Positions 41,983-63,782 of a stretch of 64,000 nucleotides of DNA are shown piece by piece. Each line of letters starts with the position of its first letter. The stretch's first letter is position 1. Source of the DNA: Sinorhizobium fredii (GTDB taxonomy: Bacteria > Pseudomonadota > Alphaproteobacteria > Rhizobiales > Rhizobiaceae); assembly GCF_002944405.1 (NCBI RefSeq), contig NZ_CP024309.1:310001-374000 (forward strand), read 5' to 3'. The notes below the pieces were generated by a model. That model made no database searches, had not been told where the DNA came from, and saw only the letters and a list, made by a program, of their open reading frames with translations. Both the position numbers and the translations under genes were made by a program.

Positions 41983-42104
41983 GGTGGTTACCTCTTTTCA
42001 TCTGGCGCACCAGGACGGCGGCACAGGGATGTCGAGATGTTTCAGATTCCCCCGAATGGGGTCGGGGACATGAAGGGCCCCCTGCTCCTCGGAGGCCCTG
42101 GTCT

Positions 42105-43607: not shown

Positions 43608-43716
43608 GGGCCCTGGTCCCTTTCAGGTTCGGTGACGCCTCGCCGACGAGGCGTTGTTCTTTAGGAAGAGCGCGCCGGGGTCGATGCCGGCGCGCTCCTG
43701 CCGGCGGCGGGGGAGG

Positions 43717-45360
<1,644 letters not shown>

Positions 45361-45732
45361 ATGACGAAAGCTACGGAAACAACCCGCTCAGCGGTGACAG
45401 GCAAGTTTGTGACGCAGCCCATCGGCGGCAAAAAGGCTGCCAAATTCGCCCAGGTCGAAGGATTGGAGATGAATGCCGCTTCAAAGGCGCTTTCAAAGAA
45501 GCTGGCCGCAAGTGGGCTTAAGGGTGAGGCGTACCGTAGCGAGATCGTCAAAGCCTTCAAAAAAGGCTGGCAGGTGGTCCGCTACAATGCCGTCGAAGAC
45601 CCGCTGTGCTATCCCGGCAGCCATGTGCTGCGCAACAAGGCGGATATCAAGGACCAGGACCACGAATTCCGCCATCAAGAACTTTTTCGGGACCGAAGAC
45701 GAAGAGACCTCACAGGGCAACCAGATAGGTAA
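45361..45732 (+). pseudogene. Antitoxin-Fic toxin remnant, fused and truncated
   Basis: The first 62 residues (TRSAVTGKFVTQPIG to SGLKGEAYRSEIVKAFKKG) match the small antitoxin that precedes rhizobial Fic toxins. The frame runs on without a stop into VVRYNAVEDPLCYPGSHVLR and NKADIKDQD, the start of a Fic AMP-transferase. Fic homology ends after about 40 residues, before the catalytic HPFxxGN motif, and the tail is unrelated. The end overlaps the 3' end of the cytochrome gene on the other strand. Confidence 0.65.
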
Positions 45733-47125
45733 CCAGCGCATCCTTTTCTTGCTGTGCAAGCTTTGTTCCCAGAACCAGGTTGAAGAACTCGACCGTGTCG
45801 GCGAGTGTCAGCAGCCGCCCATCGTGCAAATAGGGCGGAGAGTCCTTTATGCCGCGCAGTGTGAAAGTCTTGATCGGACCATCCGATGACATTACGAGAT
45901 CATTGACCTTTTGGCCGACCTTATAGAAGCGCTCAAGCTTCAGGTCGTGCAAGTTGTTGTCCATGAAAGCGGTCCCCGGGAAATGGCAAAGGGCGCAGCG
46001 ACCCTTGCCCATAAATACCCGTTCGCCCTCCAATTCCTGCTCACTCGCAAGGCTTGGATCGAGGCGTCCGAACGCGTCCAGCTTGAGCGCTGGCGGGAAG
46101 TCGATCATATTCTGCATCTGCGCCATCAGCGAGGCCTGGCTCGCGCGATCGAGCAGGTTCACCCCCTTTCGCGCCGCGCTCACATGATCGCCGTTGAAAT
46201 AGGCCGTGCGCTGCTCGAACTCAGTAAAGTCTTCAACCGACCGAAGAGACCGTTTGGAGCCATGGATCTGCTGATTGAACAGTCCGCGCAGGCTGGTAGT
46301 GTCGAGACGAAACCGCTGCGCCTGTGGCCGGACGTCAGGGGTCAGGTGGAAGGCGGCATTCGTATGGAAGTTGGAATGGCAGTCCAGACAGGCAACGCCC
46401 AGGCTCTCTTCGGCAACCTTGCGATCCTCGGTCTCATTAAACTCTTCTTGCGGAAACGGCGTTAGCAGCAGCCGAAGCCCTTCCATCTGCACCGGCGTAA
46501 TGATGCCGCTCATGATCTCATAGAAGTTCCTGGTCGTCAGAAGCTCGCCACGCGACACGTCACCAAGTTCCGGATGCGTGGTCAGGAAGATCGGCGGCGG
46601 GAACTCCGGCGTCAGGTGATCGGGGAGGTCGAAGCCGACATCGAAGCGCCTGAGATCCCTGCCTTCCCGGCGGCCGATCTCATTAATCTGCACCTCGGGA
46701 AAGACTTGGCCGCCCGTCGCCTGCTTTACATGTGGCAGCGGCAGAAAGCCGCGCGGCAATAGCGCCTGGTCTCTGATCTCGTCTGGGCTCTTGGCGGCCA
46801 ATGTGTCCCAGCTTACGCCCTTCGGGAGTTTGACGCGAACGCCTGCCTGAACCGCCTTACGGCGACCTGACATCATCACACCTTTTATCGGACGGTCGGA
46901 AAGATCGTATCGCTCCTCAAGCAAGCTGCTCTGACGTTTCATGACGCGCGGCTTCGTACGTTCGTCGAGTTCCTTCGCCTCGGAAAACGGGATAGTCGGA
47001 AAACTCCTATAGATCAGATCAGCAGGCAGCGGATAAGTCGCGGTCGCAAGGGCATGCGCGGAAACTGAGAATGCGATAGTTATAGCGATCAGAATAAAAG
47101 CTATGATCTCACGCAGACCTGACAT
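45710..47125 (-). CDS. Di-haem cytochrome c peroxidase/MauG-family protein under NifA control
   Basis: A 471-residue exported protein with a hydrophobic leader (IIAFILIAITIAFSVSAHAL) and two c-type haem sites, CLDCH near residue 270 and CALCH near residue 385. The later haem-ligand region GIKDSPPYLHDGRLLTLADT is typical of di-haem peroxidases. It probably reduces peroxide or oxidises a partner in the periplasm of bacteroids. ATG 47125 is chosen for AAGG upstream and the signal peptide. A sigma-54 element and a perfectly palindromic NifA site are upstream, so it should be induced with nitrogenase. Confidence 0.87.
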   Translation of the reverse strand: MSGLREIIAFILIAITIAFSVSAHALATATYPLPADLIYRSFPTIPFSEAKELDERTKPRVMKRQSSLLEERYDLSDRPIKGVMMSGRRKAVQAGVRVKLPKGVSWDTLAAKSPDEIRDQALLPRGFLPLPHVKQATGGQVFPEVQINEIGRREGRDLRRFDVGFDLPDHLTPEFPPPIFLTTHPELGDVSRGELLTTRNFYEIMSGIITPVQMEGLRLLLTPFPQEEFNETEDRKVAEESLGVACLDCHSNFHTNAAFHLTPDVRPQAQRFRLDTTSLRGLFNQQIHGSKRSLRSVEDFTEFEQRTAYFNGDHVSAARKGVNLLDRASQASLMAQMQNMIDFPPALKLDAFGRLDPSLASEQELEGERVFMGKGRCALCHFPGTAFMDNNLHDLKLERFYKVGQKVNDLVMSSDGPIKTFTLRGIKDSPPYLHDGRLLTLADTVEFFNLVLGTKLAQQEKDALVTYLVAL

Positions 47126-47189
47126 GTTGCTTTCGCCTTTTCCACTACAATGCCGGACGGCAGGCTTCGTTTGCCGGTGTTCAGTCACC

Positions 47190-47205
47190 TTCAAAATTTG
47201 TGCCA
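47190..47205 (-). promoter_or_regulatory. Sigma-54 promoter of di-haem cytochrome gene
   Basis: The minus strand reads TGGCACAAATTTTGAA: a perfect -24 and the same TTGAA -12 variant as nifH. It lies 65 nt before the start codon. Confidence 0.82.
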
Positions 47206-47288
47206 ACAGATCAGGGACATTGTTTTGCGATGTGCTCAGCTGCTTGAACGAGAGCGCGGCCGGACGGACGGTGGGCGAACATCAACGT

Positions 47289-47304
47289 GTCAGGTACCTG
47301 ACAC
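47289..47304 (-). promoter_or_regulatory. NifA upstream activator site, perfect palindrome
   Basis: TGTCAGGTACCTGACA is a complete TGT-N10-ACA site and a perfect 16-bp palindrome, extended on both sides by AACG/CGTT. It is 84 bp upstream of the -24 element at 47200-47205. Confidence 0.88.
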
Positions 47305-47503
47305 GTTGATTCGGCGGCTGCAGTCTGCATTGCTCTTCCAGCCAGTGACGAAGCGGATTACATTCTCCTGGCTGCCTGGGTGGGGTGAGATATTCGTCGC
47401 GCGCGGCAAAAGCAGTGGAGCTGGTGCATACACTCCCCCGCGAAAAGACATTACCCACTGACTGATAGAGCTCTCACAGCAGCGAGTTTGGACAGCGCGG
47501 CGG

Positions 47504-48730
47504 TTAGCGGTCTTTCACAACACGGCCGCCTTTGATGATCGTGCGAATGCGCTTGGAGTCGGCAAGGATCGACAGGTCCTTCAGAGGATCGCCGTCGATA
47601 ACGATCACGTCTGCGAAAGCCCCCGGTCCGATGATCCCGACCCTCCCCTCCAGCTGGAGGACCCGGGCCGCATCCACGGTGGCGGAGCGGATCACTTCGT
47701 GTGCCGGTAGGACTCGGCCGCGTAACTCGAATTCTTGCGCTTGATACTCGTGCATCCCGCCGAGTAGATCCGAGCCGTAGCCCATCGTTACTCTGGCTTC
47801 TCGCAAGGTCTCCAATGCCATCAGACCCGCGGTTAGGACGAAATCGCTCTTTTCGAGCGAAGCCGCCGGCATCCCATGTTCGGCGCCCTCGCGTGCCAAA
47901 GCGGCATATGTGATGTTCGTAGGAACCACTACGGCGCCGGACTTCCGTACCCGCTTGGCGGTCGCGGGGGTGATATGATTTCCATGCTCAATCGACCGCA
48001 CCCCTGCCTCAAGCGCCTTGGAAATCGCTTCATCCGTGTAGAGGTGGGCGGCAACATAAGTGTGCCGGTGCGCCGCTTCCTCGACCACCGCCTGCAGTTC
48101 TGGAAGGCTGAACGCGACCGCATCTATGGGGTCGGTTGGCGAAGAAACACCTCCGCTGCCCATGACCTTGACGAAGCGCGCTCCCGCCTTCAGCTCCTCC
48201 CTGGCCGCCCGTCGCACTTCCGGTTCACCGTCGCAAATGCGGCCAAGCGCACCGAGCTGGTCGACGTAATAATCTGAAGGGCGCCGATTGTGCCTATCGC
48301 GAAAATCGGTGTGGCCGCCTGTCTGAGACAATGCCTTGCCGCAAATCACAAGACGCGGTCCCTCGATTAGCCCGTGCTCGACGGCGTCCACCAGGCCTTG
48401 ATCGGCGCCGCCCATGTCGCGGACCGTCGTGAAGCCACGGCTCAGCATTCCGCGCATGGTATTTGCGGCATGGAGCGCGACGAGCGTGTTGGGCAGCTCT
48501 GCGTTCGCGGCGAGGTTTCCTTTCACGGCAACCACATGCACGTGACAATCAATCAGCCCCGGCATGACGAAGCGCCCCGCCGCGTCTAAAATGCGAGCGT
48601 CGGACGGGGCCTTCAAGCGCTCTCCGACTTCGGCGACGAATCCATCCGCGAGCAGAACATCGACCCGATCCGCAGCACGGTCGGCGGTGCCATCCACGAT
48701 GGCAGCATTGCGAATAACGATTGTTTTCAT
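47504..48730 (-). CDS. Metal-dependent amidohydrolase (imidazolonepropionase/prolidase-like)
   Basis: A 408-residue amidohydrolase-superfamily protein. The first metal motif is VMPGLIDCHVHV. The bridging Lys is likely in AGARFVKVMGSGG. The metal His residues are in YVAAHLYTD and SIEHGNHI, and the final Asp in TMGYGSDLLGG. Relatives cleave Xaa-Pro/Xaa-Arg dipeptides or cyclic imides; the substrate here is unknown. ATG 48730 is chosen where homology starts, although the ribosome-binding site is weak and a start 45 nt upstream is possible. It stands alone. Confidence 0.82.
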   Translation of the reverse strand: MKTIVIRNAAIVDGTADRAADRVDVLLADGFVAEVGERLKAPSDARILDAAGRFVMPGLIDCHVHVVAVKGNLAANAELPNTLVALHAANTMRGMLSRGFTTVRDMGGADQGLVDAVEHGLIEGPRLVICGKALSQTGGHTDFRDRHNRRPSDYYVDQLGALGRICDGEPEVRRAAREELKAGARFVKVMGSGGVSSPTDPIDAVAFSLPELQAVVEEAAHRHTYVAAHLYTDEAISKALEAGVRSIEHGNHITPATAKRVRKSGAVVVPTNITYAALAREGAEHGMPAASLEKSDFVLTAGLMALETLREARVTMGYGSDLLGGMHEYQAQEFELRGRVLPAHEVIRSATVDAARVLQLEGRVGIIGPGAFADVIVIDGDPLKDLSILADSKRIRTIIKGGRVVKDR

Positions 48731-49713
48731 CCGTGTGCCCCGTGGTTTTCGCGAAAAATCCACCACATACGCCATCACTTCCAGAAATGACGTGCGGCGC
48801 TCCGATCTTGTCTCGATAGGTTGGCCAAAGCACTGATCGTCAGCCTTCACGGAGACTCAGCTAAAATCGATTGCGTCGCGGAGGAGAGTAGCCGCGGGCG
48901 AAGAAGGCGGCGCGCTCACCGTTGTCTATGCCGAAACCATGACCGCCGACGTCGAGTTCGTTGAGGTAGGCCGATAGCCGGTCGTCCCGTTTCGTGGTGG
49001 CGAGCAGGATCGGCGGGTAGAATCGCCCTGGTTTGAATAGGCCGAGATTTCTTCTCCGGGTTTTCAGTATCGCCGCATTCGTCGCTCCAGCTCGCGCTAC
49101 GAGTAGCTTCGTAACGGCGCATATCGATAGCGGAAAAAAGCTGCAACGCCCAGAAGTGCCAATGTTCTCGGCGATTGCTTCCCGACCCAGACGAGGCTCC
49201 GAGGGCCGGAATTCCCAATCGGGGATTGCGCATTCTTTCCCTCGCTTCCCTGATAATCAAAAGTTATGCCAACTGCACATGACCTTCTTCCCGGATGGGT
49301 TCACGAGCTAAAGTGGGAGCAATCAACAGCTGGCCGAACACTCCCGTGTCGCGGACGCGACATCCCGACAGCCGCCGGCTGCTGCTCAAGGTCTCAATGC
49401 GCTCCGGCGCTAAGCCAGAGGTGGGACGCTCAGGTGTGGCATCATGATCGCGGAGCCCGAGCGCATGCTGCCTGCCCATACGCACGACGCTCGTGCGGAT
49501 TAAACCGATCAGACGTAGACGGATCACGCCCCGGGACGCCGCAGCGTTCGAGCTTCCCCGGCCGATCCGGACAGCTAGCCCTTTTTTGATCGAGGCGGCC
49601 GCTCCCCGAACTGCACTGGGAGCGGGGAAAGCGTGTGGTGATTGCCGCCGGCAGCCTTGGCGCGCTTCGCCGCTAAGGGGTGACATGCCGCCTACGCGTG
49701 TGAAGGCCGCGGA
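48731..49713. other. Region without a recognised gene
   Basis: About 980 bp between the amidohydrolase and nodD. One frame near 49266-49330 has LLPGWVHELKW, faintly like the adenylation domain of ATP-dependent DNA ligases, but it is too short to call. The rest shows nothing. Confidence 0.4.
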
Positions 49714-50691
49714 TCAGAGCTGAGCCGGACAATATTCGTGCTGGTCCGGACTGTTGAGGAGCTCGGACGCAACAAGCGGAGAGGCCAGTCGGGACCCCTC
49801 CTCTACCAGCATCTCGCGCAGCCAACGACTGGCAGGATCACTATCGTGAAGCGCAGGCCATTGAACGGCCTCGGTGAACGGAAGGTGTTGTGGCAGCGGA
49901 AGCTCGACGACTTGGAGGGGAAGGATTTGCGCGAAATGTTGCGCCAGGCGCAACGGCATGGTTCCTATACGATCGGTGTCCGACAGCATGGGCGGAATCA
50001 TGCTGTAGCCGTGCACGACGACGTCGATCCGTCTCTTTTGATCGTACTCCAGCAAGAACCGTTCCTCCAGGCCTAGCCTCAGGGTGTCCCCGAACCCAAC
50101 GACAACGTGCCCCATCGACATGTATCTTTCGAATGTGAGCGGCTCTGACAGCTGCTTGTTCGAACGACAGCCGACACACACGTGTACATCGTCGAACAAT
50201 TTCGTTCGAGGATGAGCGTTAGACATGAATATCTCCGGCAGAATCAGAAGATCGACGTCGCCCCGCTGGAGAAGGTCCCCATAGTCGTCGGTGGGAGGCC
50301 GAAAATCAAAGCTGACGCCGGGAGCTTCACGCGTCGCACGCTCCACAACCCTTTCGAAAAACACGAGCGTCACGTAGTCGGAAAGGATGATCCTGAAGCG
50401 ACGATCCGATCGGGCCGGATTAAACGGCTCCCAGGATATGATGGAGAGCTGAATGTGCTGCAGAGCCTCCCGAGCCGCGGCCGCCAGCCCTTGCGCACGA
50501 GGTGTGGGGATAAATTCGCGCCCCGCCATTGTAAACAACTCATCACGGAAATAGCTGCGCAATCGCGCGACGGCTGCGCTCATCGCCGGCTGACTGAGAT
50601 TGATGCTGCGTGCCGCCGCCGTGACGTTACGCTCGGTCATCAGGGCGTCGAGCGCGACGAGGAGATTCAGATCAAGGCCTTTAAAACGCAT
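49714..50691 (-). CDS. nodD: Nodulation regulator NodD (LysR family)
   Basis: A 325-residue LysR activator that binds nod boxes and responds to plant flavonoids. The start [20 protein letters not shown] and the [23 protein letters not shown] are diagnostic of NodD, as are [27 protein letters not shown] and [20 protein letters not shown]. Length and frame look intact. Downstream residues diverge from well-known NodD1 sequences (for example [13 protein letters not shown]), so it may be a NodD2/NodD3-like copy. A degenerate nod box lies just upstream, divergent, at 50700-50746. Confidence 0.93.
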
Positions 50692-50699
50692 GTCTCTTT

Positions 50700-50746
50700 A
50701 TCCATAACGTGGATGTATATCGCATCCCTTATTAGTAATATAAATT
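50700..50746 (+). promoter_or_regulatory. Degenerate nod box divergent from nodD
   Basis: The first 16 bases ATCCATAACGTGGATG match the nod box left half (ATCCATNNTGTGGATG) with one difference. The right half (after 50716) keeps only scattered matches. It points rightward, away from nodD, where nodA would normally stand. No nod gene follows for over 2 kb. Confidence 0.6.
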
Positions 50747-51208
50747 GACGTTTTCACAGCACAGAGACCCGGTACGGAAACTTTAATTCGCGAATTGGAC
50801 ATTAAACGCGAATTTGAACATTGCGGTGATTTGTGGACGCGTGTTCGGGAAAGTCGAGCGATCCAGCCTCGCCCCGCGGCAATTTTCAGCGGGTAAACGG
50901 TCGGCCCTGCCATATGTTCTGACTTCGGTCGACACGTTTTGGCGGTCGTCGACAGCGAGTACGGGTGTCAAACAACGCGGAGCGAGTTCCTCCTGCGTCG
51001 CTTGCGAAGTTCATCTTTGATGCGGACTGCGAATTGCCGACTAAATTAGATGAAGCGGTTGGACGTGACGGATGTGGTGAGGAGAACGTCGGCGACACCG
51101 ACGGCGATCATCCGACGGCGCAGAGGTTTATCTGCGGCATCCCCGTCTTTCGATTTTCGCGCGGACCGTCATGCTATTATCGCGTGAGCGCCTTCGCCAT
51201 GCGCCTTG
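50747..51208. other. Region without a recognised gene downstream of the nod box
   Basis: About 460 bp between the nod box and the 3' end of the AraC-type gene. Frames such as 50965-51240 (+) lack similarity and ribosome-binding sites. Confidence 0.45.
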
Positions 51209-52225
51209 TCAGGGGGACCTACGAGAATGCGACCCGCTAACGCGCCTCCTCGTTGCGGACGGATTTTCTCCATAGTGTGCCCTATAAAGTGCCGAGAACC
51301 TCCCGAATTGAAAGAATCCCCATTTCAGGCAGATTTCCTTCAAGAGCATATGGTTCTCTGGATCGAGGAGGTCCTCCCGCGCTGCCCGCAATCGAAGCAT
51401 CTGTAGATAGGCTGCAGGCGTTGTGTCCTTGAAAGCTCGAAATCCCGCTTCGAGTGCTCTGGTGGAAACACCCGCTGCATCTGCCACCATTGGCATCGTA
51501 ATCGGCTTGTTGATATTGGCGTACATGAACTCGATCCCGCGGCGCACATGTCCGGGAGCAATCATGCAAGGCTTCTTATTCAATAGATGCGACAACCGAT
51601 GAGGCACCATCCTTATTACCATGTCGGCGAGTGCCTGCGTAATATGGGCCATCGCTACAGGGGACTGAATGAGGGGGCCATTATCGCGGATGCCTTGGAT
51701 TATCGCTTCCGTGACGTTGCCGATTGTCCTGCCGACCGGCGTTGACAGATCCACTTCGGGCAACAGGTCGAGCGAGCCATTGAACGGCACATCGAAAGTT
51801 TCGCCAATGGTCCGCTGAATCAACGACCAATTAAGCACCAACTCGTCTATCAGATTGGATTGCCCGTGCATTGAGATGCCGTCAGGCTCAAAGTTCCTGT
51901 AAAGAAGCAGTTTCCCGGGTTCGGCCCCGGCCATGCGAGAACCGTACGTGACCCCCATGCCACCTCTGCGCGGCACCACGATCGATAGGTGCTCTGTTGC
52001 ACCGGCACACCACTGAGCACGGAACTGAAACCCTGTCTGATGGTGACCAGTAATCAATACTGCGCTCTCAGAGGCCGAAAGATCGATCCCCCAATGGAAG
52101 TCTTGAGCACGGCCGACGAGCTCGGCGTCGAATGTGCCGAAAACCCCTCCCAGGGTTTCGATCATGCTGTCGAACGTGGAACCACGATATCGAAAAACGG
52201 CATCACCGGCGCTATTTTCCATCAT
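51209..52225 (-). CDS. AraC-family transcriptional regulator
   Basis: A 338-residue regulator. The C-terminal 110 residues form the double-HTH AraC domain: PITMPMVADAAGVSTRALEA and FRAFKDTTPAAYLQMLRLRA, then CLKWGFFQFGRFSALYRAHY. The N-terminal 200 residues form an AraC-binding-like domain (FDAELVGRAQDFHWGIDLSA). ATG 52225 or 52222 both follow CTGGAG. It stands alone between nodD and nodA, and its effector is unknown. Similar AraC genes occur on rhizobial symbiotic plasmids. Confidence 0.85.
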   Translation of the reverse strand: MMENSAGDAVFRYRGSTFDSMIETLGGVFGTFDAELVGRAQDFHWGIDLSASESAVLITGHHQTGFQFRAQWCAGATEHLSIVVPRRGGMGVTYGSRMAGAEPGKLLLYRNFEPDGISMHGQSNLIDELVLNWSLIQRTIGETFDVPFNGSLDLLPEVDLSTPVGRTIGNVTEAIIQGIRDNGPLIQSPVAMAHITQALADMVIRMVPHRLSHLLNKKPCMIAPGHVRRGIEFMYANINKPITMPMVADAAGVSTRALEAGFRAFKDTTPAAYLQMLRLRAAREDLLDPENHMLLKEICLKWGFFQFGRFSALYRAHYGENPSATRRRVSGSHSRRSP

Positions 52226-52519
52226 GCATTCTCCAGGTTCAGTATTGCTGCTTTTATCGTTCCTGCTGGCTTCAATTTCCAAGGACCTGACGAGAGATGT
52301 GCATGCATTCCAATTGCGGCGCGATAGTGCCGGATGTCCGCGCTGCGCCTTGTTACCGCCGAAGACTTGCTTGACAGGAGGTCCTTGAAGCCGAGAAAAT
52401 CGTCCCCTAATTGCGTTGAAGCGCGGCTCGGACTGACCATGATTTCCGCCGAATTCGCACTGAGCGATTTATAGCAACTGCTCGTCTTGGGAATAGGCCA
52501 GTGGCTGGGCGGCGGCCGC
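52226..52519. other. Region without a recognised gene
   Basis: Nearly 300 bp upstream of the AraC-type gene, with no protein similarity seen; it should include that gene's promoter. Confidence 0.4.
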
Positions 52520-52612
52520 ACTCAAGGCCGGCTGGCTGAGACTGCGTGCCGCGGCCCGTGACGTTAGGCTCGGTCATCAGGGCGTCTGCGCGACGAGGAG
52601 ATTTAAGTCAAG
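52520..52612 (-). pseudogene. nodD N-terminal fragment
   Basis: The plus strand here (GTGACGTTAGGCTCGGTCAT and CAGGGCGTC, then GCGACGAGGAGATT) is nearly identical to the part of nodD that encodes residues about 8-38 (50570-50670). One or two small deletions break the frame. It is a relic of a second nodD in the same orientation as the intact one, close to nodA. Confidence 0.75.
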
Positions 52613-52765
52613 AAAGGTCACTGCCAGAACTCCAACGGACGCACGCCAGATCCGCCGACCGGGGCATGCGCCATCGGTCCCGCCGGGCACCGGCTTTGGA
52701 CTGCGGGCGAGATCGCGTGAGCTCGCCAATGAGCGTCGGCACTTGGGACAAGCAGTCAAGGCGGC

Positions 52766-53356
52766 TCATAGTTCAGGTCCGTTCCGGTCGATCATCTTGG
52801 CGGCGGGCCAGTCGGAGAGCGGCCGACTAACAGGCAGGACGATGACCAGTGGGTCCTCGACGCGCGTCGGCGGCAGGTCGACACGCGCGTGTGGCAGCGT
52901 GGATCGTACGCTGATCCCAGACATAACAGTCACCAGGCCGTGTCGGCCGAACCGCTCAATGTGTTTCCGCAGCTGGTTGCGGACGGTACCGAAAGCGAAT
53001 GGAACTTGAAACTCGTGCAGTGTCGGAAGCATGACATGTATCGAATGGGCGATTCCGAGTCCTTCGAGATCCGGACGCACTCCATACAGGCCGAGTTCAG
53101 CCACGAGCAGGTCGACTCCGTCAACCTTGATGAAACGGCGCAGCAAGCCCATGTGAGCCGCTACACCGCTGGAATCGTAGGCGATGGCACGAAGCTCAGG
53201 TCTTGCCCCAGCCCAGCTTTGACTGCCTTCGAACGGCTTCGCATTAAAGGCCCCTGTCGGTCCATAGGTCCTTCGAAAGAAGTCCGTGAGTTCGACATGG
53301 TCGGAGAGTTGCAACTCGTTTTCCCAACACAATTTCCACTGCACGTTAGAACGCAT
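52766..53356 (-). CDS. nodA: Nodulation N-acyltransferase NodA
   Basis: A 196-residue acyltransferase that attaches the fatty acyl chain to the chitooligosaccharide backbone of Nod factors. The family blocks are present: [75 protein letters not shown] and the C-terminal MIDRNGPEL. Length is exactly standard. Unusually it is not followed by nodB or nodC, and no nod box is visible in the 250 bp upstream. In M. loti nodB is also separate from nodA. Whether this copy is expressed is unclear. Confidence 0.95.
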
Positions 53357-54588
53357 GCAAAGACCTTTTTTTGCTGTTGAATGAAGTTCGGAAGCGTCGA
53401 CCTTACGTCCAAGTTTCCTGCTCGCATCGTCAAGGCGCAGTCGGATCACAGCGCGGGCTCCACCGGTTTAACAGGACCTCATGATCGCCGAGGATCTGGC
53501 GGATCAGAACGTGCATTAACCCGCAGGAATAGCTGGCGACCGATCTCACGGAGCCGCAACAGGCGATGTTCAGGAAGCTGGAGACGCTGGGCGCGGAAGC
53601 GGCCGGCGCATTGCCAGCTATAGCATCCGCCAGAGCCGTCGCGGACGAGTTCATTGGACAGGAGGTCAAACGGCGCATCCCAATTCAGCGGAACACATTC
53701 TTCAAGTCCATGCTGTTCGTCCGGACCCCGGCCGTTCTCCAGCCACCCCTTGCGCACCATAGTGTGCGCGACGCGCGCGCTTTGATGCAAAGCAGCGGAA
53801 AAGTTTTGGACGACATAGATCGGATCCGGGGCGCCGGCATGCGACAGCTGTCTATCGTCCCTTCGTACCGAAAACGCGCCCCAATGCGAGGTGCAGGGGC
53901 GGCTGGGCTTGTTCGTTTCCGGAAGGCTGCGAAGTCCAGCATGAAAGGATCCTGTTCCGACGCTTAGGCCCGCCTGGGCCTGGTGTCGCGACGACGGCAA
54001 GGGCATTAAGCTCGCCAAGCCCTTTTAGCGCATCCTAAATTGGGCGTATTTCGATGAACTGACAATCTATATAGAATATCTGCCAGGCCGCTGTTCAGGC
54101 ATGGCCAGGCACGTGACGAGCGAATGGAGGGTGTCCGGCGCCAAGCAGCCTATCAAGCGGATATCGGCAGGCACGCGATCCGAGGCCGGTGTTGCCCCCA
54201 TGAGCGCTGGTCGGCCTGAACAATTCTGGTGGAGGTGAAAACCACCAGCAGGCCTATCCGCGGCTGAAGGGGTGGTGCGGTCCTGCGTTCTCGCAGCGGA
54301 CATGGCCGCGTCCCCACATGAGACCTTGAAAGCCATCGCCTCCTTGAACCCGCGATTGATTTCCCAGGCGGATGCCTCCAAGCGAATGATCACGGATCTA
54401 ACTGCGGGCAGCTACGCCGAACATATGCGTCGGTCTCCTCAACCGTGACGCATTCGAGATCAACTCGCTTGGATTACCATGCCTCTTTGCTCACACCACC
54501 GACGACGTCGCTGCCAGGGGCCGCACCACGAGCTCCGCCGAGCCGAGATCAAGATCTGTAAAGGCAGGGCGTCATTTAAGCTCCATCT
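53357..54588. other. Region without a recognised gene between nodA and the nodN nod box
   Basis: About 1.2 kb. Frames on both strands (for example 53479-54018 minus and 53566-53967 plus) show no motif I can assign. It is probably decayed insertion-sequence or nod DNA. Confidence 0.45.
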
Positions 54589-54635
54589 ATTGAGGATGTG
54601 GATCGATGCCATCTACACAATCAATTTATCAAACC
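54589..54635 (+). promoter_or_regulatory. nod box upstream of nodN
   Basis: TGTGGATC at 54597-54604 and, six bases later, ATCTACACAATCAATTTATC align with the consensus TGTGGATG-N6-ATCNAAACAATCGATTTT at nearly all positions, followed by AAACC where the consensus has ACCAATC. The first half-site (ATTGAG for ATCCAT) is weak. It faces nodN, about 310 bp downstream. Confidence 0.75.
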
Positions 54636-54945
54636 TGTCAAATGCTATTAGATGAAGTAAAGAACAAAGGCAGGAGGTTTTGCATAGGTACGATGGCGTC
54701 CGTCTCCATAATGGCTATTTGGTCAGGATCACTATCTCAGCCATTCATAAAAATAGGCTGAGGGAGATCCAGGCGACTCCTGTCGTGATCAACCGCAGCG
54801 CGACGCACAAGCGGCGCGGTCCCCACCACCGTGATCGTTGGGCTACAGGCAACTCGCCGATAGCTTCCTACAATGGTACCGCCGCTCTTCCGGAGCCTCG
54901 CCTAACAACTACAGTTCGGCTCGAGGCACTTATCAGGATAACTAC
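54636..54945 (+). other. Leader between nod box and nodN
   Basis: A good ribosome-binding site (AGGCAGGAGG, 54669-54678) precedes ATG 54690, but only a 22-codon frame follows (MASVSIMAIWSGSLSQPFIK). No family is recognised. A nod gene may once have stood here and been lost. Confidence 0.35.
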
Positions 54946-55487
54946 ATGCCGCAAGAAATCTCAATCTCCGATGTCAAGGATCTGATCGGCAAGGAGATAG
55001 GCGTCTCCGACTGGATCACCGTACACAAGAGACCATTGACAACTTCGCGGGGGCAACCGGAGACTTCCAGTTCATTCACACCGATCCGGTTCGCGCAGCA
55101 ATGGAGACACCGTTCGGCGGCACGATCGCGCATGGTTTCCTGTCTCTCTCGCTGCTCTCGGCGATGAATTACAATTGCCTGCCGAAGATCCGCGAGCTCA
55201 CGATGGGGATAAATTACGGCTTCGATAAAGTTCGCTTCATGGCACCGGTCAAGTGTGGCGCACGCGTGCGCGGCCGCTTCACCCTGGCCGACGCTCGCTT
55301 CTGTGCCGCCAGCATGCTGATGATTGCCTATGACGCTACAGTTGAGATCCAGGGGGAAAGAAAGCCGGCTCTGAATGCAATGTGGCAGACAATGATCCAA
55401 TTCGATGCAAAGCTCATGTCTGAGCAGGCCCGGCGGGCGACTTTTGGCGGCACGCGCAGGCGCACTATTCCGGCCGCCGCACAATAG
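54946..55487 (+). pseudogene. nodN: Nodulation protein NodN (MaoC-like hydratase), frameshifted
   Basis: The start MPQEISISDVKDLIGKEIGV then SDWITV is the NodN/MaoC N-terminus. At about 55020-55030 the reading frame changes, and the second frame gives TQETIDNFAGATGDFQFIHT, DPVRAAMETPFGGTIAHGFL and INYGFDKVRFMAPVKCGARV. The hot-dog active-site motif (D..H region, FIHTDP) is kept. One missing base near ACCGTACACAAGAG explains the break. NodN affects Nod-factor production in other rhizobia. It is either a pseudogene or a sequencing error. Confidence 0.85.
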
Positions 55488-55844
55488 AGGTCGGCTTTCC
55501 CTCAACGGGCAGCGTTTCCCTGGAGGGGAGCGATCGACATCGCCTCGACTTGCGAGGGTAGCTGAGCCTCCTCTTCGGCCTCTTCGGCCCGAGCTTGCAA
55601 TTCTTACATGCTCGGCCTTGCACAAGAAGATCGCAAGGTGGCAGCTCCGATCTCGCTCTTGAGAGCCAGCTTCGCGCATTCGGCAATGCCGCGGTCAAAG
55701 GTTCTAGGTCTCAAAGTGGTCACCATCATGCGACGCCTGCCTTGCAATTGTCATACTTAAGGAATTATGCTGCACTGCACCATAATCGGTTTGTCCTGCC
55801 CTGTGGTTGCCGTCTCCCTGTGGTGCATGATCGAAGGAGTTACC
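55488..55844. other. Intergenic region, no recognised gene
   Basis: About 355 bp between nodN and the small HTH gene. Nothing recognised apart from the strong GAAGGAG ribosome-binding site at its end. Confidence 0.45.
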
Positions 55845-56087
55845 ATGCCAAATTCAGCGAACAATACAGGTGCGCCTGTGGCGAAGCGAGGCCACGTTGA
55901 TGTCGGTGATACTGTTCGGCGATGTCGAGAAGCGGTTGGATACAGCATTGAGGATCTTGCATTGACCTGCGGACTGACTGGCGCAGAAATCACCAGGATT
56001 GAACTGGGTGATGATGTCGACCCGGACAAGCTCAGGCGCATCGCGGCGGCACTTCGAGTGCCAACCTCCACCTTCCTGCTGGACTAA
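55845..56087 (+). CDS. Small XRE-type HTH regulator
   Basis: An 80-residue protein. VGDTVRRCREAVGYSIEDLA, LTCGLTGAEITRIELGDDVD and LRRIAAALRVPTSTFLLD form a Cro/XRE helix-turn-helix. ATG 55845 has GAAGGAG 5 nt upstream. The target is unknown. Such single-domain regulators are common around rhizobial nod regions and also in mobile elements. Confidence 0.8.
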   Translation: MPNSANNTGAPVAKRGHVDVGDTVRRCREAVGYSIEDLALTCGLTGAEITRIELGDDVDPDKLRRIAAALRVPTSTFLLD

Positions 56088-56392
56088 CGGAACGGGCGTC
56101 ACGCTGGCAGCGATACCAGACGCCTCTTGTTTGCACCGCTACGGCTTTGATGGAACTCACCATGATCGGCGACCACCAAATGACCTTATAGCCATTGTCC
56201 ACGGACGTACTGGCTTTTGGCGGCAGCAAGGTCGGGTTCAGCCCGGCCTTTTTGTGTACGCTACCTGACTGAACCGGCCCACTCTGTTGTGCCGCTGCCA
56301 ATAGGGCGTACACTGCTCTCATCAGCGGCTGGTTACACGGGCGCCGCTGGCTGGAAGATCTGCGCTTTCGCCCCAACCGAGCGAGATGCGCA
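56088..56392. other. Intergenic region, no recognised gene
   Basis: About 305 bp between two small genes; nothing assigned. Confidence 0.4.
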
Positions 56393-56599
56393 ATGTATTC
56401 TGGCAACGATTCCTATAGCCCTGCTCTCTCACCTGACGACCTCGACTTGCTCCAGAGCATCCTTGATGAGGAAATCAGGGTCCGACGCATTCCGATCACA
56501 AGCGACCGAGCCGATGAGCTTGCCGGAAAGCTCATCAGGCTGTTTCAGTCGGGAGTGAGACAGCCTGATGTCCTTCGTTTAATGATCAGGACCGGGTGA
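56393..56599 (+). CDS. Small conserved hypothetical protein
   Basis: A 68-residue frame: ALSPDDLDLLQSILDEEIRV and ADELAGKLIRLFQSGVRQPD. This acidic helical pattern occurs in small rhizobial proteins of unknown function that I recall from symbiotic regions. No domain with a known role is seen and no strong ribosome-binding site precedes it. Confidence 0.55.
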   Translation: MYSGNDSYSPALSPDDLDLLQSILDEEIRVRRIPITSDRADELAGKLIRLFQSGVRQPDVLRLMIRTG

Positions 56600-56869
56600 A
56601 AGCTCGTCGCCAAGCACGGCCGCCTTGACGGCGGTTGGGGCGACTTCGCCATCAATCGAACAAAGGTCGCTCGTCCAATCGTGGCGGGTGATGACACGCG
56701 CGTGTGGATAAACCATCGCCATCTCGCCCATTTCACCCGAAAGTTTCAGCCTGACTCTTTGTCGGTTTTGACGAGGAGCGAGGCAAGACAGGGATGACCC
56801 ACGCCGGCATTGAGGCTTGAGTAGGTTTGTCGACCGGCGCTCCTTAATGTCGTTCTTGGCGGGCCTAAC

Positions 56870-57007
56870 CGAAAGGCCACCTGTACGCCAGGAAATGAGG
56901 TCTGGAAGAGTGAAGCCATCAGATGCACCCACCGCGAGCGCAGCGATCACCAGCCCGGGCGCTCGAAACGGCAGGGATCGTTGTGCGCGCCTATGGCGAT
57001 AGTGCAT
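56870..57007 (-). pseudogene. Degenerate copy of a sunset-domain membrane protein, N-terminal part
   Basis: From ATG 57007 the frame reads HYRHRRAQRSLPFRAPGLVI and AALAVGASDGF, then LISWRTGG. It parallels the intact protein at 63468-63782 (RPQRRSVLSYPGLLIAALAV, GAAGGM, LLASLTGG). The C-terminal domain is not preserved; the open frame continues to 56579 without similarity. The untranslated flanks also resemble each other, so a larger segment was duplicated. Confidence 0.6.
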
Positions 57008-57461
57008 GCCCTCTCCCCACCTGTCGTTCTGAGGAAATCGTACTGCAGCGCGTCCGTCGGCAATAGCTGTACAAACGGGTTGGGCATCCTTTTCGTCAGC
57101 GGCAACAACCCCGCTGCCGGCCGAGTGTGGAGGGCCGCCCGGATCGTCTCATTCTGATCTCCCGCTCAATGCCGAAGCCGCTTCTATAGAGGTCTCGGGT
57201 TACGAAGGTCGACTTTAGAACTGTGCGATTTCGCCGCGCCTAACTCGGTCCAGATCGGTTCGGCATCAGGCGTGCCGATCACCATGTCGAACACTTCCAA
57301 AAATGGTGTAAGAAGACTCACGCGAGCCGTCGGCTGCAGCGCGACAACCAAGATGAGACGAAGCGTCAATCAAGATGAGACTCGGCAGCAGCGGTGGAAC
57401 GCAGAGAGGGCGTAGCCCGAACGGAGTTCTACCGCTGCTGCCGCGCCGATTCATCTGGTGA
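57008..57461. other. Region between sunset-domain remnant and IS21 element
   Basis: About 450 bp. The first 60 bp resemble the 5' flank of the gene at 63468-63782. The right part should contain the left IS21 end, but I could not find the partner of the right terminal repeat. Confidence 0.4.
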
Positions 57462-59935
<2,474 letters not shown>

Positions 59936-60056
59936 TCTCAGCCAGATTGTCGCTTTACAGTCGGCGCTACCAATGCATCTGCAGTATTTCAAAGAGATAG
60001 GAGAACGGCATTCTTCGGCCACTCACGGACCAACTTTCATGACAGGAAGCCTCGCG

Positions 60057-60950
60057 TCATCGCGGGACGGAAAGCCTCAGAAGCATGCTGCCGGAGACAA
60101 GAGCGATGCCGAGAACCTGCCGGGGGCCAAGTTCATCTCCGAAAAAAGTTGAAGCGAAAACGCTTCCTGCTACTGGCACGAGCAGCGTCAAGTACGCGGC
60201 CCTGCCGACGCCGATGCCGGCAATTGCGTAGTACCAAAGCCAAAACGCTACAGCACCGTTCAACACACCCGAATAGAGAATAGCTAGCACATCGTTCCAG
60301 CTTGGAAGCGGAATTGATCCGTTAGGCACCACCGTGAAAATGAAGAAGAAAGGAAGGTTCAGGACGAAAGCCAATATGCATTGCAACGCTACTCTACTGA
60401 TCCCGGAAATTGAGTGGGAAGGCTTTCCCGCCAAGATTGTTGCAAAAGCCCAGGCACTCGCGTTGATGATCACCAGTATGGCACCCGCCCCGAAGCTGCT
60501 GCCACCGATGTACAACAATACGCCGACGACGGCTACGATGGGTGCAAGCATTGCGAACGGATGGAGGCGCTTTCCCGACACAATCTCGATCAGGCTTGTG
60601 ATGGCGGGCATCGTGTACATCAACGTCAGAACCGCCGACGCTGGAAAGAATGCAAGAGCGATCACATTGACCGTCGACACGACGAACCCGTTGATGACTG
60701 CAACGATGAGCGTGTTGTGTCGTTCTTCGATTGACGCTGTTCGAAGCTCCCGCATGCTCTTAGGAAGGAATACAGCTATTGGAAGAAGGCCCGCCAGTAG
60801 ACTGTAAAAGCGAAAGGGCCAAACACCCAAGTCTTTGATTGCCTCGCGAGAAAGGGAGAACGCTGTGCTCCAAATCAACACCACGGCTCCCCCGGCCAGC
60901 AGGGCCAGCAAGGACCTCATATCAAAGGCCGCCCTATTATTCCGCGTCAT
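60057..60950 (-). CDS. EamA/DMT-family exporter of the pantocin-like cluster
   Basis: A 297-residue membrane protein with ten predicted hydrophobic segments in two EamA repeats (for example LLALLAGGAVVLIWSTAFSL and ILYSGVLNGAVAFWLWYYAI). Drug/metabolite transporters of this type export small molecules. It is the last of four minus-strand genes and overlaps the oxygenase stop by 14 nt, so it probably exports the modified peptide product and gives self-protection. Pantocin A clusters also end with a transporter gene. Confidence 0.82.
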   Translation of the reverse strand: MTRNNRAAFDMRSLLALLAGGAVVLIWSTAFSLSREAIKDLGVWPFRFYSLLAGLLPIAVFLPKSMRELRTASIEERHNTLIVAVINGFVVSTVNVIALAFFPASAVLTLMYTMPAITSLIEIVSGKRLHPFAMLAPIVAVVGVLLYIGGSSFGAGAILVIINASAWAFATILAGKPSHSISGISRVALQCILAFVLNLPFFFIFTVVPNGSIPLPSWNDVLAILYSGVLNGAVAFWLWYYAIAGIGVGRAAYLTLLVPVAGSVFASTFFGDELGPRQVLGIALVSGSMLLRLSVPR

Positions 60951-61620
60951 ACCTGACGACTACTGCTATTCGTTTTGCCTTCGGCCGAGCAGTCACCATC
61001 GACACAAAATGCGGAATCAAGCGGGCGCTGGTATCAAAGATCAGCGCCTGAAACTCGGTCGGGACCAAACACGCTCTAATCGCCTTGCGATCATCGGTCT
61101 GCACCATCGTGAGGCCGCCATGGTTCGGTTCCCACCCCTTCGTCAGATTTAGAACGAGACCGAAACTCTGGCCCGGGTCTGTATGCGTATATAGAAACTC
61201 CCCTTCGTCAAACCGGTTGAAGTAGAAGCGCCGGATGGCCGTGGCTTGTCTTCCGGTGATCTGCTTCAAGAGCTCAAACATGGGTTCCGAAGACAAGAGT
61301 GTCTTCACACCCCAAAATACGAAGTTCCGGTTGCTGGTTGGGGTGTCTTCCAAACGCTTGAACGAATAGGAGAATTCGCCAGCTGTATAATCGGCGATTG
61401 CCATTTCGTGAGCAGCGGCTGCCCGGCTGTCCTGATAGTAATCCGCCACACCATCTCGATTTTTGATGATTGCTGACCAGAAGCGATCCTCGATCCTCTC
61501 GACGCCCTCGGCGATCCGCGGCAAGCCGGGCAGGAATTCGGATAGGTCGAAATAGACGAACCCTTCGACGTCAAACGTCTCGCGCAGCGATTCAATCTTG
61601 CTCAAAAAGCACCTCTTCAC
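60937..61620 (-). CDS. 2-oxoglutarate/Fe(II)-dependent oxygenase (PaaB-like)
   Basis: A 227-residue prolyl-hydroxylase-like dioxygenase. The iron ligands are His146 and Asp148 (FLYTHTDPG) and His204 (IPHFVSMV); Arg217 (KAKRIAVVVRY) should bind 2-oxoglutarate. Its start overlaps the E1-like gene by 29 nt, indicating coupled translation. In the pantocin A pathway an oxygenase of this type (PaaB) acts with the E1-like PaaA; here it may hydroxylate or oxidatively trim the modified peptide. Substrate is inferred from context. Confidence 0.85.
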   Translation of the reverse strand: MKRCFLSKIESLRETFDVEGFVYFDLSEFLPGLPRIAEGVERIEDRFWSAIIKNRDGVADYYQDSRAAAAHEMAIADYTAGEFSYSFKRLEDTPTSNRNFVFWGVKTLLSSEPMFELLKQITGRQATAIRRFYFNRFDEGEFLYTHTDPGQSFGLVLNLTKGWEPNHGGLTMVQTDDRKAIRACLVPTEFQALIFDTSARLIPHFVSMVTARPKAKRIAVVVRYDAE

Positions 61621-62716
61621 GCGTCGCGTATGTCCTTAACGACATGTGGAATCGCGTCCCCACGAGGTTGCAGTTGTCGTACTTTGTAATAAGTTTCAGG
61701 ACCTGATCGGCTACAAGACCCGCCATTACCGCCAACGATGGTGAGCTTTGCCACGCGTTGACGCTGCGATTGCCGTTGGCGAACTCATTTTTCAGCCGGG
61801 CTTCCTGGAAGCTTCTAACCAGTGCGTCATCACTATAGAATCGGTCTTGAGAAATGCGCCGCAGGTCTTCGAATGAGGGGTGGCTGCCGTCATTGAGATA
61901 AATTGGACCGACCGATATATCGAGCGGGTCACCGCCAAGTTCGATCACCGGAATCTGCCGATCGCGAGCGATCTCGTGGACTATCCTCTCGACGCTGTCC
62001 TTGCGATAGTACCCCAAGCTCGCCCAAGCCAGAATTGCAACGGTAACTCCTTTCAGCAGCTCTCCCAAGCGAACACGATCCGGTAGGGCAAACTCGTAAA
62101 AGGGTTCGACGCGAACATGCGGATTATGCTTCCGAACGTTTGCGGCCGCGGCATCTACTTTTCGTGCCCCAAGATCAGTGGTGTTGTAGAGAACCTGGCG
62201 ATTGAGATTGGAAAGCTCGACATCGTCCCCATCCACGATCCGCAATGTGCCGATTCCGGAACGTGCAAGGAGGAGGGAGCACCACGTTCCCCAACCCCCC
62301 ATTCCCAGCACGAGCACACGGGCCTGCTTTAACCGCTCCTGATAGGCTGTCGCATTATCCACCCGATCTTCGTCGATGAGTGAGAATTGCAGCACCTGCC
62401 TGTCGTAGCGCTCGATCTCCTCTGAGCTCAACAAGCTGGAAAATCGGGAGCTCTCTTCAATAAGTCCGAAGCCAGCAAGAGCTGAGACAAAATCGTGCAC
62501 GTCACCGTCCGTGACGTCGTAATGTTCTGCCTTAAGCTCCTTCAGTATCCTCGGCATTGTATGCTCGCCGTCTAGTCTCGAAAGCACAAGTGCAACCCAA
62601 GGCGGAGGAGACTGGATGATCTTTGATTTTCCGGGTATTTCACCGATGCAAATGCTCCCGTCCTCTGCTACGAGAACATGGTGGGACCGCTTTAATAAGG
62701 GTTTTGCATACTCCAC
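61592..62716 (-). CDS. E1/ThiF-like peptide-modifying enzyme with RiPP recognition domain (PaaA/MccB-like)
   Basis: A 374-residue protein. Residues 1-90 have the pattern of a winged-helix RiPP recognition element (SPPPWVALVLSRLDGEHTMP, VHDFVSALAGFGLIEES). Residues about 95-340 are an E1-like adenylation domain with the nucleotide loop VLVLGMGGWGT (138-144), the ribose Asp in VDGDDVELSNLNRQVLY and NPHVRVEPF. No CxxC zinc pair is seen. Such enzymes adenylate a side-chain or C-terminal carboxylate of a precursor peptide. PaaA uses this to condense two adjacent Glu residues in the pantocin precursor; the small gene upstream encodes a peptide with Glu-Glu. Confidence 0.87.
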   Translation of the reverse strand: MEYAKPLLKRSHHVLVAEDGSICIGEIPGKSKIIQSPPPWVALVLSRLDGEHTMPRILKELKAEHYDVTDGDVHDFVSALAGFGLIEESSRFSSLLSSEEIERYDRQVLQFSLIDEDRVDNATAYQERLKQARVLVLGMGGWGTWCSLLLARSGIGTLRIVDGDDVELSNLNRQVLYNTTDLGARKVDAAAANVRKHNPHVRVEPFYEFALPDRVRLGELLKGVTVAILAWASLGYYRKDSVERIVHEIARDRQIPVIELGGDPLDISVGPIYLNDGSHPSFEDLRRISQDRFYSDDALVRSFQEARLKNEFANGNRSVNAWQSSPSLAVMAGLVADQVLKLITKYDNCNLVGTRFHMSLRTYATREEVLFEQD

Positions 62717-62740
62717 GAGATGCCTCGCTCAAAAGGAAGG

Positions 62741-62767
62741 GCGAAGTCGCGCATTGACTTCGCCCCC
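62741..62767 (-). terminator. Hairpin with T-rich tail between precursor and E1 gene (attenuator)
   Basis: GGGCGAAGTC at 62758-62767 (minus strand) pairs perfectly with GACTTCGCCC across a 7-nt loop, followed by TTCCTTTTG. It lies between the stop of the peptide gene (62779) and the E1-like start (62716). It would stop most transcripts after the precursor gene, keeping precursor in excess over enzymes. Confidence 0.75.
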
Positions 62768-62778
62768 GGATCTACAGC

Positions 62779-62874
62779 CTAGACGAGGATAATCTTGCCT
62801 TTGCTGTACGTTGCGTCTTCTTCGCTGATAGCGGAGATGCGCTTTTCAAGGTCAGAAAATACAAGCTTCTTCAT
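62779..62874 (-). CDS. Putative pantocin-like RiPP precursor peptide, 31 residues
   Basis: The start MKK and the C-terminal part RISAISEEDATYSKGKIILV form a 31-codon gene with AAAGGAA 8 nt before the ATG. From memory, the pantocin A precursor PaaP is about 30 residues with a similar RISAITEEN...YTKGQ stretch, and its adjacent Glu residues become the bicyclic core. Here Glu18-Glu19 are followed by Asp20 instead of Asn. The gene is 62 nt upstream of an E1-like enzyme in the same orientation, separated by a hairpin. It has no Cys, so lanthionine or thiazole chemistry is unlikely. Confidence 0.82.
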   Translation of the reverse strand: MKKLVFSDLEKRISAISEEDATYSKGKIILV

Positions 62875-63280
62875 ACTCGTTCCTTTCTTTCGAAAACGCG
62901 CCACAATCGGCGCAACCCACCGTCGGTGACCTTTCGAGCACGTCAAGACGTGACATCGCGAGGCGCAGACAATTGTGATGGAGCCTTACTCCACCGATTG
63001 CGCTCGGCCGTTTTCGGCAGAGCACTTGCGGTCACCAGGTCGCCAGCGCCCCGCTCGAAGGAGACTCAAATATCGTGCCAGTCGGGCCGGGAGCGTGGCA
63101 GATCTTTTTTCCCGTGTCGTTCAAAGGCTTGAGTGGATGTGCTTCGAGGTGGCTCGCCGAACAAGACCGTCGCAAAGCGGACAAATCCGACGCGACGCGT
63201 CCTCCTGCTCCAATCACGACGTCCCGATCTGTTATCGGGGACAAGCCACAGTTGCGGCCGGGTGCCTGAAAACCGTTCTA
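62875..63280. other. Region upstream of the RiPP precursor
   Basis: About 400 bp that should contain the promoter of the peptide operon. A sigma-54-like element is noted at 63065-63080. No gene is recognised. Confidence 0.45.
63065..63080 (-). promoter_or_regulatory. Possible sigma-54 promoter facing the pantocin-like cluster
   Basis: The minus strand reads TGGCACGATATTTGAG: a perfect -24 element and a TTGAG -12 element like the TTGAA variants at nifH. It is about 190 nt upstream of the precursor start. No NifA site TGT-N10-ACA was found in the 180 bp above it, so the call is weak. Confidence 0.35.
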
Positions 63281-63307
63281 GGAAGCGTGGCCGAGTGGTT
63301 TAGGCAC
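63281..63307 (+). other. 5' fragment of a tRNA-Ser-like sequence
   Basis: GGAAGCGTGGCCGAGTGGTT followed by TAGGC matches the acceptor arm and D-arm start of bacterial tRNA-Ser genes. The anticodon arm, long variable arm and 3' end are not recognisable after 63307. It may be a scar of an integration or recombination event at a tRNA-Ser gene. Confidence 0.5.
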
Positions 63308-63467
63308 TGGCCGCGACGCGCAAGGGACGGTGTCGGGATTCACTTGACTGGCCTATGTCGCTGTCTACGCGGTCGAGGACGTTAGTTTTGATCCGAGTAC
63401 CGGGCTCAAGTTCACGATCACCAGCAGATTGTCCGATCTGCGATAGTCATCAATGGACGGCAGCGCG

Positions 63468-63782
63468 TCACACCTTCGACTTCCGCCACCCCGCGGCCCA
63501 AGCCTCGAACTCCGAACAGAACCAACGCTCCCCATATTGCGGGCTGATCTTTGTCTGCGAGTAAAATCTCTGACCAGGCACGTGGAATATCCGCTCGCCG
63601 GTGTCGATGCTGATATTGCCTTTGATATCGCAGGGTCCAGCAGAACCGCCAGTAAGTGAGGCAAGAAGGTCGCCCGCAGTCATGCCCCCGGCTGCACCGA
63701 CGGCAAGCGCGGCGATCAGCAGGCCAGGATAGGACAGTACAGACCGTCTCTGCGGACGGCCCAGGTGTGGGCGGTAACGCAT
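63468..63782 (-). CDS. Membrane-anchored sunset-domain protein of unknown function
   Basis: A 104-residue protein with one N-terminal hydrophobic helix (SVLSYPGLLIAALAVGAAGG) and a C-terminal sunset domain: CDIKGNISIDTGERIFHVPG, then YGERWFCSEFEAWAAGWRKS, with the conserved paired Cys. It is common in rhizobia, often duplicated. A degenerate paralogue lies at 56870-57007. Confidence 0.78.
   Translation of the reverse strand: MRYRPHLGRPQRRSVLSYPGLLIAALAVGAAGGMTAGDLLASLTGGSAGPCDIKGNISIDTGERIFHVPGQRFYSQTKISPQYGERWFCSEFEAWAAGWRKSKV

Follow-up and report, generated by a model that had tools for sequence, protein, structure and literature searches.

We analyzed a window of 64,000 nucleotides of Sinorhizobium fredii DNA (contig NZ_CP024309.1), whose minus strand carries, from 62874 to 60057, four genes corresponding to paaP, paaA, paaB and paaC of the pantocin A cluster, which directs synthesis of a ribosomally synthesized and post-translationally modified peptide (RiPP). 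The original prediction, made from this DNA, had placed four minus-strand genes here and read them as the pantocin A gene set. Open reading frame (ORF) analysis located all four with intact frames, arranged head to tail with short gaps or overlaps (Table 1), and every family feature tested was found except the Asn that follows Glu-Glu in pantocin A. That position varies within the family (D, K, I, S or N), and the difference therefore sets the product apart without affecting family membership. By sequence, 62874-60057 is a complete pantocin-A-type operon, and pantocin-type biosynthesis is very probable. This chemistry is of an already known kind; the novelty lies in the regulation. Together with a nif-type promoter sequence upstream, the complete paaPABC set predicts a pantocin congener whose production, in nodule cells that fix nitrogen, is likely controlled by NifA and sigma-54.

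Table 1. Features of the paa locus and of the nifH gene used for comparison; positions are those of the window.
Feature	Position	Strand	Details
paaP	62779-62874	-	31-residue precursor; codons 62782-62874, stop reaching 62779; assigned by TIGR04310 above cut-off
paaA	61592-62716	-	RiPP recognition element (RRE; PaaA-like_N) plus ThiF/E1-like adenylating enzyme; 374 residues; GTG start
paaB	60937-61605	-	2-oxoglutarate (2OG)-Fe(II) oxygenase-like; TTG start shared with the RefSeq orthologue; alternative GTG start possible at 61620
paaC	60057-60950	-	EamA/DMT exporter; start 13 codons later in the RefSeq orthologue
Hairpin between paaP and paaA	62737-62767	-	12 bp; folding compared with shuffles
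Conserved 15-bp block	62956-62970	-	GTCTGCGCCTCGCGA; in predicted paaP leader; from upstream conservation
Sigma-54 -24/-12 promoter-like element	63066-63081	-	CTGGCACGATATTTGA; pattern TGGCACG-N4-TTG at 63067-63080
NifA upstream-activator-like site	63168-63183	-	TGTCCGCTTTGCGACG; TGT-N10-ACG; 103 bp ahead of the TGG at -24
nifH -24/-12 element (comparator)	44684-44699	-	TTGGCACGACTTTTGA; A at -12
nifH (comparator)	43717-44610	-	First gene of nif cluster; 95.9% to nifH of S. americanum CCGM7

The precursor PaaP has the sequence MKKLVFSDLEKRISAISEEDATYSKGKIILV, and its gene is preceded, by eye, by an AAGGA ribosome-binding-like sequence. It matched the NCBIfam model TIGR04310 ('pantocin A family RiPP') with an expectation value (E) of 1.7e-10 and a score of 40 bits, above the cut-off of 35, which speaks against a chance ORF and bears out its proposed likeness to PaaP; in a genome-wide scan it was the sole match, at 38 bits. 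Two outcomes that the original prediction had named as fatal, a small ORF without PaaP similarity in profile searches and one lacking conservation in related clusters, were not what we found: the paaP region recurs in relatives. The leader residues F4, L7, R10 and I11 named in a pantocin review (PMC12250964) are F6, L9, R12 and I13 in the window's PaaP, forming the motif F-x-x-L-x-x-R-I; the core is Glu18-Glu19-Asp20, followed by ATYSKGKIILV. The Glu-Glu-Asp core had been described correctly, with Asp20 in place of Asn, and the idea that it is new was dropped, since the same review already lists Lys, Ile and Asp variants at this position.

PaaA, proposed as an E1/ThiF-like enzyme with a recognition domain, contains both parts (PaaA-like_N, E 1.7e-33; ThiF, E 1e-37) and aligned over residues 4-372 with crystallized PaaA (PDB 5FF5; E 9.6e-145). 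Counted along this alignment, Arg173 and Lys186 of the window's PaaA correspond to Arg174 and Lys187, whose mutation is reported to lower or eliminate activity (PMC12250964). PaaB, put forward as a 2-oxoglutarate oxygenase, aligned with oxygenases encoded in other paa clusters, with HxD...H present in 10/10 aligned rows, though in Pfam it scored below cut-off (23.1 of 27 bits). PaaC has the EamA domain expected of the proposed exporter (E 6.5e-31). Both proteins aligned with those of Pantoea brenneri, Enterobacter and further loci, PaaB with E 8.6e-39 over 235 positions of the Pantoea locus; identities to the P. brenneri proteins were 57% for PaaA, 35% for PaaB and 30% for PaaC. The window's cluster thus has the same gene families in the same order as that of Pantoea pantocin A, and it agrees with it in precursor model, in leader motif, in the Glu-Glu core and in the active-site residues of PaaA; it differs in the Asp for Asn, in a precursor two residues longer ahead of the leader motif, in its nif-type promoter sequence and in its position in a symbiosis region. 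The hairpin between paaP and paaA folds with -29.3 kcal/mol over 71 nt (z -2.15; 5/200 shuffles folded equally well) and is identical in five aligned Sinorhizobium sequences except for two loop bases in Ensifer BR816. A terminator scan did not call it, and its sequence is compatible with a possible attenuator that would limit read-through and raise precursor over enzyme.

Relatives were drawn from fourteen loci of one species-genome scan that reached close relatives only. The residue after Glu-Glu was D, K, I, S or N among 15 loci: EED in Ensifer BR816, S. americanum CFNEI 156 and Stenotrophomonas; EEN in Enterobacter, Pantoea, Edwardsiella, Shewanella and on a Vibrio plasmid; EEK in three Photorhabdus, Providencia burhodogranariea and Pseudomonas; EEI in Providencia rettgeri; and EES in Aquabacterium. 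The paaABC order is the same in all four other Sinorhizobium/Ensifer loci (L001, L007, L019 and L020), with the same paaP region upstream. Ratios of non-synonymous to synonymous substitution rates (dN/dS) for paaA, paaB and paaC were about 0.12, 0.13 and 0.07 against BR816 and 0.06, 0.07 and 0.14 against CFNEI73; by these comparisons, paaABC is kept under purifying selection. In a phylum sample, TIGR04310 matched 1/398 genomes, namely this one, which makes such samples too thin for mapping the family; PaaA-like_N matched 3/394 in the family sample at E <= 0.001, with two above cut-off (one from this genome, the other a truncated copy). In a set of 72,556 plasmid records, full-length PaaA occurred on two S. 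americanum plasmids and, at 55% identity, on one Vibrio plasmid. A tree of 82 PaaA rows nested the Sinorhizobium copies in a group of 16 rows that includes Stenotrophomonas (support 100/99), several rows of which are flagged for odd composition, and suggests that Sinorhizobium acquired paaA by transfer from a gammaproteobacterium. The Stenotrophomonas cluster (L002) lies in the clade nearest Sinorhizobium PaaA and shares the Glu-Glu-Asp core, but its PaaA is 64% identical and it lacks a nif-type element.

A close relative, on plasmid B of S. americanum CCGM7 (NZ_CP013053), is an orthologous cluster in the same place with 97.3% DNA identity, which RefSeq already annotates as 'pantocin A family RiPP'; it differs from ours in lacking an IS21-type insertion behind paaC and in carrying roughly 400 bp of additional DNA ahead of paaP, and its annotation is silent on regulation. 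The same plasmid matched window positions 37391-56606, from a MaoC gene to nifHDKENX and including a NodA-type gene, at 94.9%, in agreement with the rhizobial symbiosis region claimed at the outset. The paa cluster lies about 15 kb from the nitrogenase genes; nifH starts at 44610.

The promoter region, together with the Rhizobium remnants described below, was absent from the original prediction and is the more interesting part of the locus. The pattern TGGCACG-N4-TTG occurred at two sites in the window, one ahead of nifH and the other 193 bp ahead of paaP, against an expected 0.15; 2/100 shuffles had two. The joint pattern TGT-N10-ACR-N60..110-TGGCACG-N4-TTG[AC] found only the nifH and paa sites in the window and occurred in 0/300 shuffles. 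The consensus NifA site, as used here, is TGT-N10-ACA. The window's nifH carries a perfect copy, TGTCGAAACCGCGACA, at -106, and TTGA plus a perfect site stood at nifH in 4/4 loci whose start was read (the window, CCGM7 and two R. gallicum); nifH of R. etli IE4803 matched as a fifth locus, with its start unread, and lies outside this count. Both the paa and the nifH elements of the window carry A, not C, at -12. In PMC3538637, the RpoN consensus is TGGCACG-N4-TTGCW, A at -12 is rare (9/186 predicted RpoN promoters in Rhizobiales), the nifH promoters of R. etli, R. leguminosarum and M. loti have it, and the NifA site is printed as TGT-N10-AGA.

Across the genome we found 23 -24/-12 sites of this type, 12 on the window's contig and 11 elsewhere (backward control, 15); a perfect NifA site lay within 220 bp upstream of 7/12 on the contig and 0/11 elsewhere. 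The -24/-12 element was present in 5/5 Sinorhizobium copies of the paa cluster and in 3/3 R. gallicum remnants, against 0/13 non-rhizobial paa clusters. Its block had 14/16 positions invariant among seven rhizobial sequences, where the mean was 6.9, and tied with the 15-bp block of the predicted leader as the most conserved 16-bp upstream window in Sinorhizobium and R. gallicum; an Rfam search of the leader gave no match. A perfect NifA site stands upstream of paa in BR816 (TGTCCGCTCCGCGACA) and in three R. gallicum (TGTCGAATCCGCGACA), at -101 to -104. Regulation is the new element of this cluster: the sequence argues for nif-type control, and the operon is likely governed by NifA with sigma-54, with a predicted transcription start near 63054.

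Similar sequences were seen elsewhere. Elements of the nif type with A at -12 lie at two more places in the window, one at 47191-47206 (-; TTGGCACAAATTTTGA) with TGTCAGGTACCTGACA 97 bp upstream of it, and one at 32835-32850 (+; TTGGCACAACTTTTGA) before what looks by eye like a LuxR-like ORF. On an S. chiapasense plasmid (L063:4001-4118), a piece resembling the paa promoter and leader, CTGGCACAATTTTTGA, directly precedes a methyltransferase-domain gene; the same stretch had no TGT-N10-ACR site and no annotated paa genes.

The second part concerns Rhizobium. Searching for distant DNA similarity and searching with protein recovered the same 18 Rhizobium plasmid records (L021, L022, L024 and L048-L062; for example L049:3001-3270), which keep only the start of the paa locus; bean was the source of 14. 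All 18 share a reading-frame end right behind the RRE, and nothing of the remainder of paaA, paaB or paaC was found in the eight remnant loci tested. A 90-codon RRE frame is intact in 15/18, the exceptions being IE4803 and Kim5, which share a frameshift, and 8C-3, which has no start; all four stand-alone RREs tested matched PaaA-like_N at E 2.8e-23 or better. In two R. gallicum remnants, paaP carries a frameshift downstream of its core, in the third the core is missing, and a leader-pattern search recognized none in the other 15. In the fetched stretches, nifH follows the RRE on the same strand in 9/18. A P450-ferredoxin-NTF2-SDR-LLM gene set precedes most remnants in parts and is whole in R. 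gallicum IE4872; none of it was found in the fetched stretch of TAL182, Kim5 or R. acidisoli. Perfect NifA sites occur in four remnants (three R. gallicum and Mim1).

The stand-alone RRE appears to be held under coding constraint. In 11 different intact sequences, the first, second and third codon positions had 29, 18 and 61 changes, a third-position excess with p 7e-7 when changes are treated as independent. The frame contained no insertion or deletion, against 9-10 per pair in flanks of equal length, and its identity was 88% against 76% and 67%. In a neutral simulation, both lineages stayed free of stops in 21% of cases, so the absence of stops is weak evidence alone, and the claim is based on the third-position excess and the missing insertions and deletions. 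Pairwise dN/dS was about 0.2-0.4 where deeper lineages were compared and reached 0.58 among shallow pairs, a weaker constraint than on the full paa operon. Because the remnants share their truncation, the constraint would postdate the loss of enzyme and exporter, unless plasmid recombination misleads. Taken together, these data suggest that the 90-residue Rhizobium protein is a repurposed stand-alone RRE. The annotation of Rhizobium sp. NXC14 (L061:2501-5264) places genes for a Nif11-like leader RiPP precursor and for a radical SAM epimerase roughly 1.6 kb past the gene of the stand-alone RRE.

By analogy with the biochemistry of PaaA, the RRE would bind the PaaP leader, and the ThiF domain would activate Glu18 and Glu19 with ATP, so that double dehydration and decarboxylation give a bicycle, which PaaB would dehydrogenate. 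Leader and follower would be trimmed by proteases encoded outside the cluster, and PaaC would export the product and protect the producer. A product retaining Glu-Glu-Asp, in the way pantocin A retains its tripeptide, would have the formula C13H15N3O6 and a neutral mass of 309.096 Da. Low nodule oxygen would activate NifA, the paa operon would be transcribed along with nifH, and the product might deprive competitors inside or close to the nodule of histidine, which would favor the producer's kin. An antibacterial product is probable, and on balance we favor the whole picture of a pantocin-type antibiotic made at the nodule stage under NifA.

Several observations weigh against this picture. The chief one in this strain is the NifA-like site, which is one base off TGT-N10-ACA and ends in ACG in the window, CCGM7, CFNEI73 and CFNEI156 (4/5 Sinorhizobium), a change that may weaken or abolish activation by NifA; the paa element is accordingly one of the five on the contig that lack a perfect site. 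The predicted paaP leader would measure about 180 nt. Among the Rhizobium remnants, the -24/-12 core was found in 15/18, with A at -12 in five and G in ten, and was not found in three. The Pfam score of PaaB and the low identity of PaaC to the Pantoea exporter count on the same side, as does a paaA dN/dS of 0.6 against CCGM7, which is uninformative on three differences. Finally, the HisC target is taken from Asn-type pantocin A, not from an Asp core.

The imperfect NifA-like site in this strain and three relatives is what would be expected if an ordinary pantocin-type operon were expressed in free-living cells from an unrecognized promoter, with the nif-type element as a leftover from its ancestry that has ceased to function here. 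Pantoea makes pantocin A without known nif control, and the element was absent upstream of 13/13 non-rhizobial paa clusters (800 bp searched; 501 bp in one). However, no sigma-70-like promoter was found at 62650-63400, where no terminator was called either; the -24/-12 core is unchanged in 5/5 Sinorhizobium copies while adjacent bases vary, and BR816 keeps a perfect NifA site. We regard expression in free-living cells as a serious contender, though an unlikely one.

The position in the nif region and the nif-type promoter would also suit a nodule-made signal or modulator of bacteroid or plant amino-acid metabolism, and the consulted portion of the review reports no activity for an Asp core (PMC12250964). 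Against a signal stands PaaC: an EamA exporter of this type gives E. coli resistance to pantocin A (PMC12250964) and is under purifying selection here, which leaves a signaling role improbable. Decaying, horizontally acquired cargo without present function would fit the 18 Rhizobium plasmid records that hold only remnants and the IS21-type element directly behind paaC; with four intact frames and a paaABC dN/dS of 0.07-0.13 against BR816, decay of the window's cluster was rejected, and the cargo explanation is very improbable. A microcin-C-type pathway yielding an adenylated peptide has virtually no chance of being correct: MccB likewise joins an RRE to ThiF and appeared in the PDB search at E 2.8e-15, but the PaaA match is about 130 orders of magnitude stronger, the precursor matches TIGR04310, and the accompanying genes, like paaBC, encode an oxygenase and an EamA exporter.

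If the favored picture of a NifA-driven, nodule-stage antibiotic is right, antibiotic production is tied to nitrogen fixation, so that only cells fixing nitrogen in the nodule would pay for and release the weapon. In S. meliloti L5-30, the mos genes for rhizopine are themselves under nif-type control; they differ from paa in genes and chemistry, and their product is a nutrient, not a toxin. Rhizopines are made by bacteroids and used by free-living cells of the same strain (PMC8416774). Following this rhizopine logic, we favor kin-directed defense as the purpose, and the system would offer a direct test of whether bacteroids defend their kin, the question underlying rhizopines and nodule competitiveness. 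More tentatively, as a possibility we hold at somewhat less than even, the bacteroid congener under NifA and sigma-54 would be the toxin counterpart of rhizopines, while the 90-residue RRE of bean and mimosa Rhizobium would have been repurposed as a symbiosis-plasmid peptide-binding protein. If the picture holds, a plant symbiont would also supply a Glu-Glu-Asp pantocin congener. Bean strains already under study, for example R. etli CFN42 (gene annotated at p42d 227253-227588), would supply a natural free-standing RRE that has neither a recognizable precursor nor a recognizable enzyme next to it.

Trifolitoxin and phazolicin are likewise rhizobial peptide antibiotics used in competition; to our knowledge, they belong to other RiPP classes without a ThiF/PaaA enzyme. 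In open-licence PMC literature, no title among the matches listed named a NifA-controlled antibiotic or a rhizobial pantocin, and the two papers pairing pantocin with Sinorhizobium mentioned pantocin once each. The CCGM7 and CFNEI73 genome paper (PMC5011921) has no mention of pantocin, ThiF, bacteriocin or antibiotic, and that on NifA regulons of Alphaproteobacteria (PMC4999443) none of ThiF, EamA, peptide or antibiotic.

Around the cluster, the IS21-type element occupies 57330-59962 (ORFs of 521 and 303 residues) directly behind paaC and is not in CCGM7, the one relative compared; a 4 bp overlap at the insertion site suggests a target duplication. Two small minus-strand ORFs, at 63468-63782 and about 56579-57007, flank the paa cluster and look related by eye. 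The DNA upstream of paaP resembles the site behind paaC in CCGM7, with 71% identity over 164 bp.

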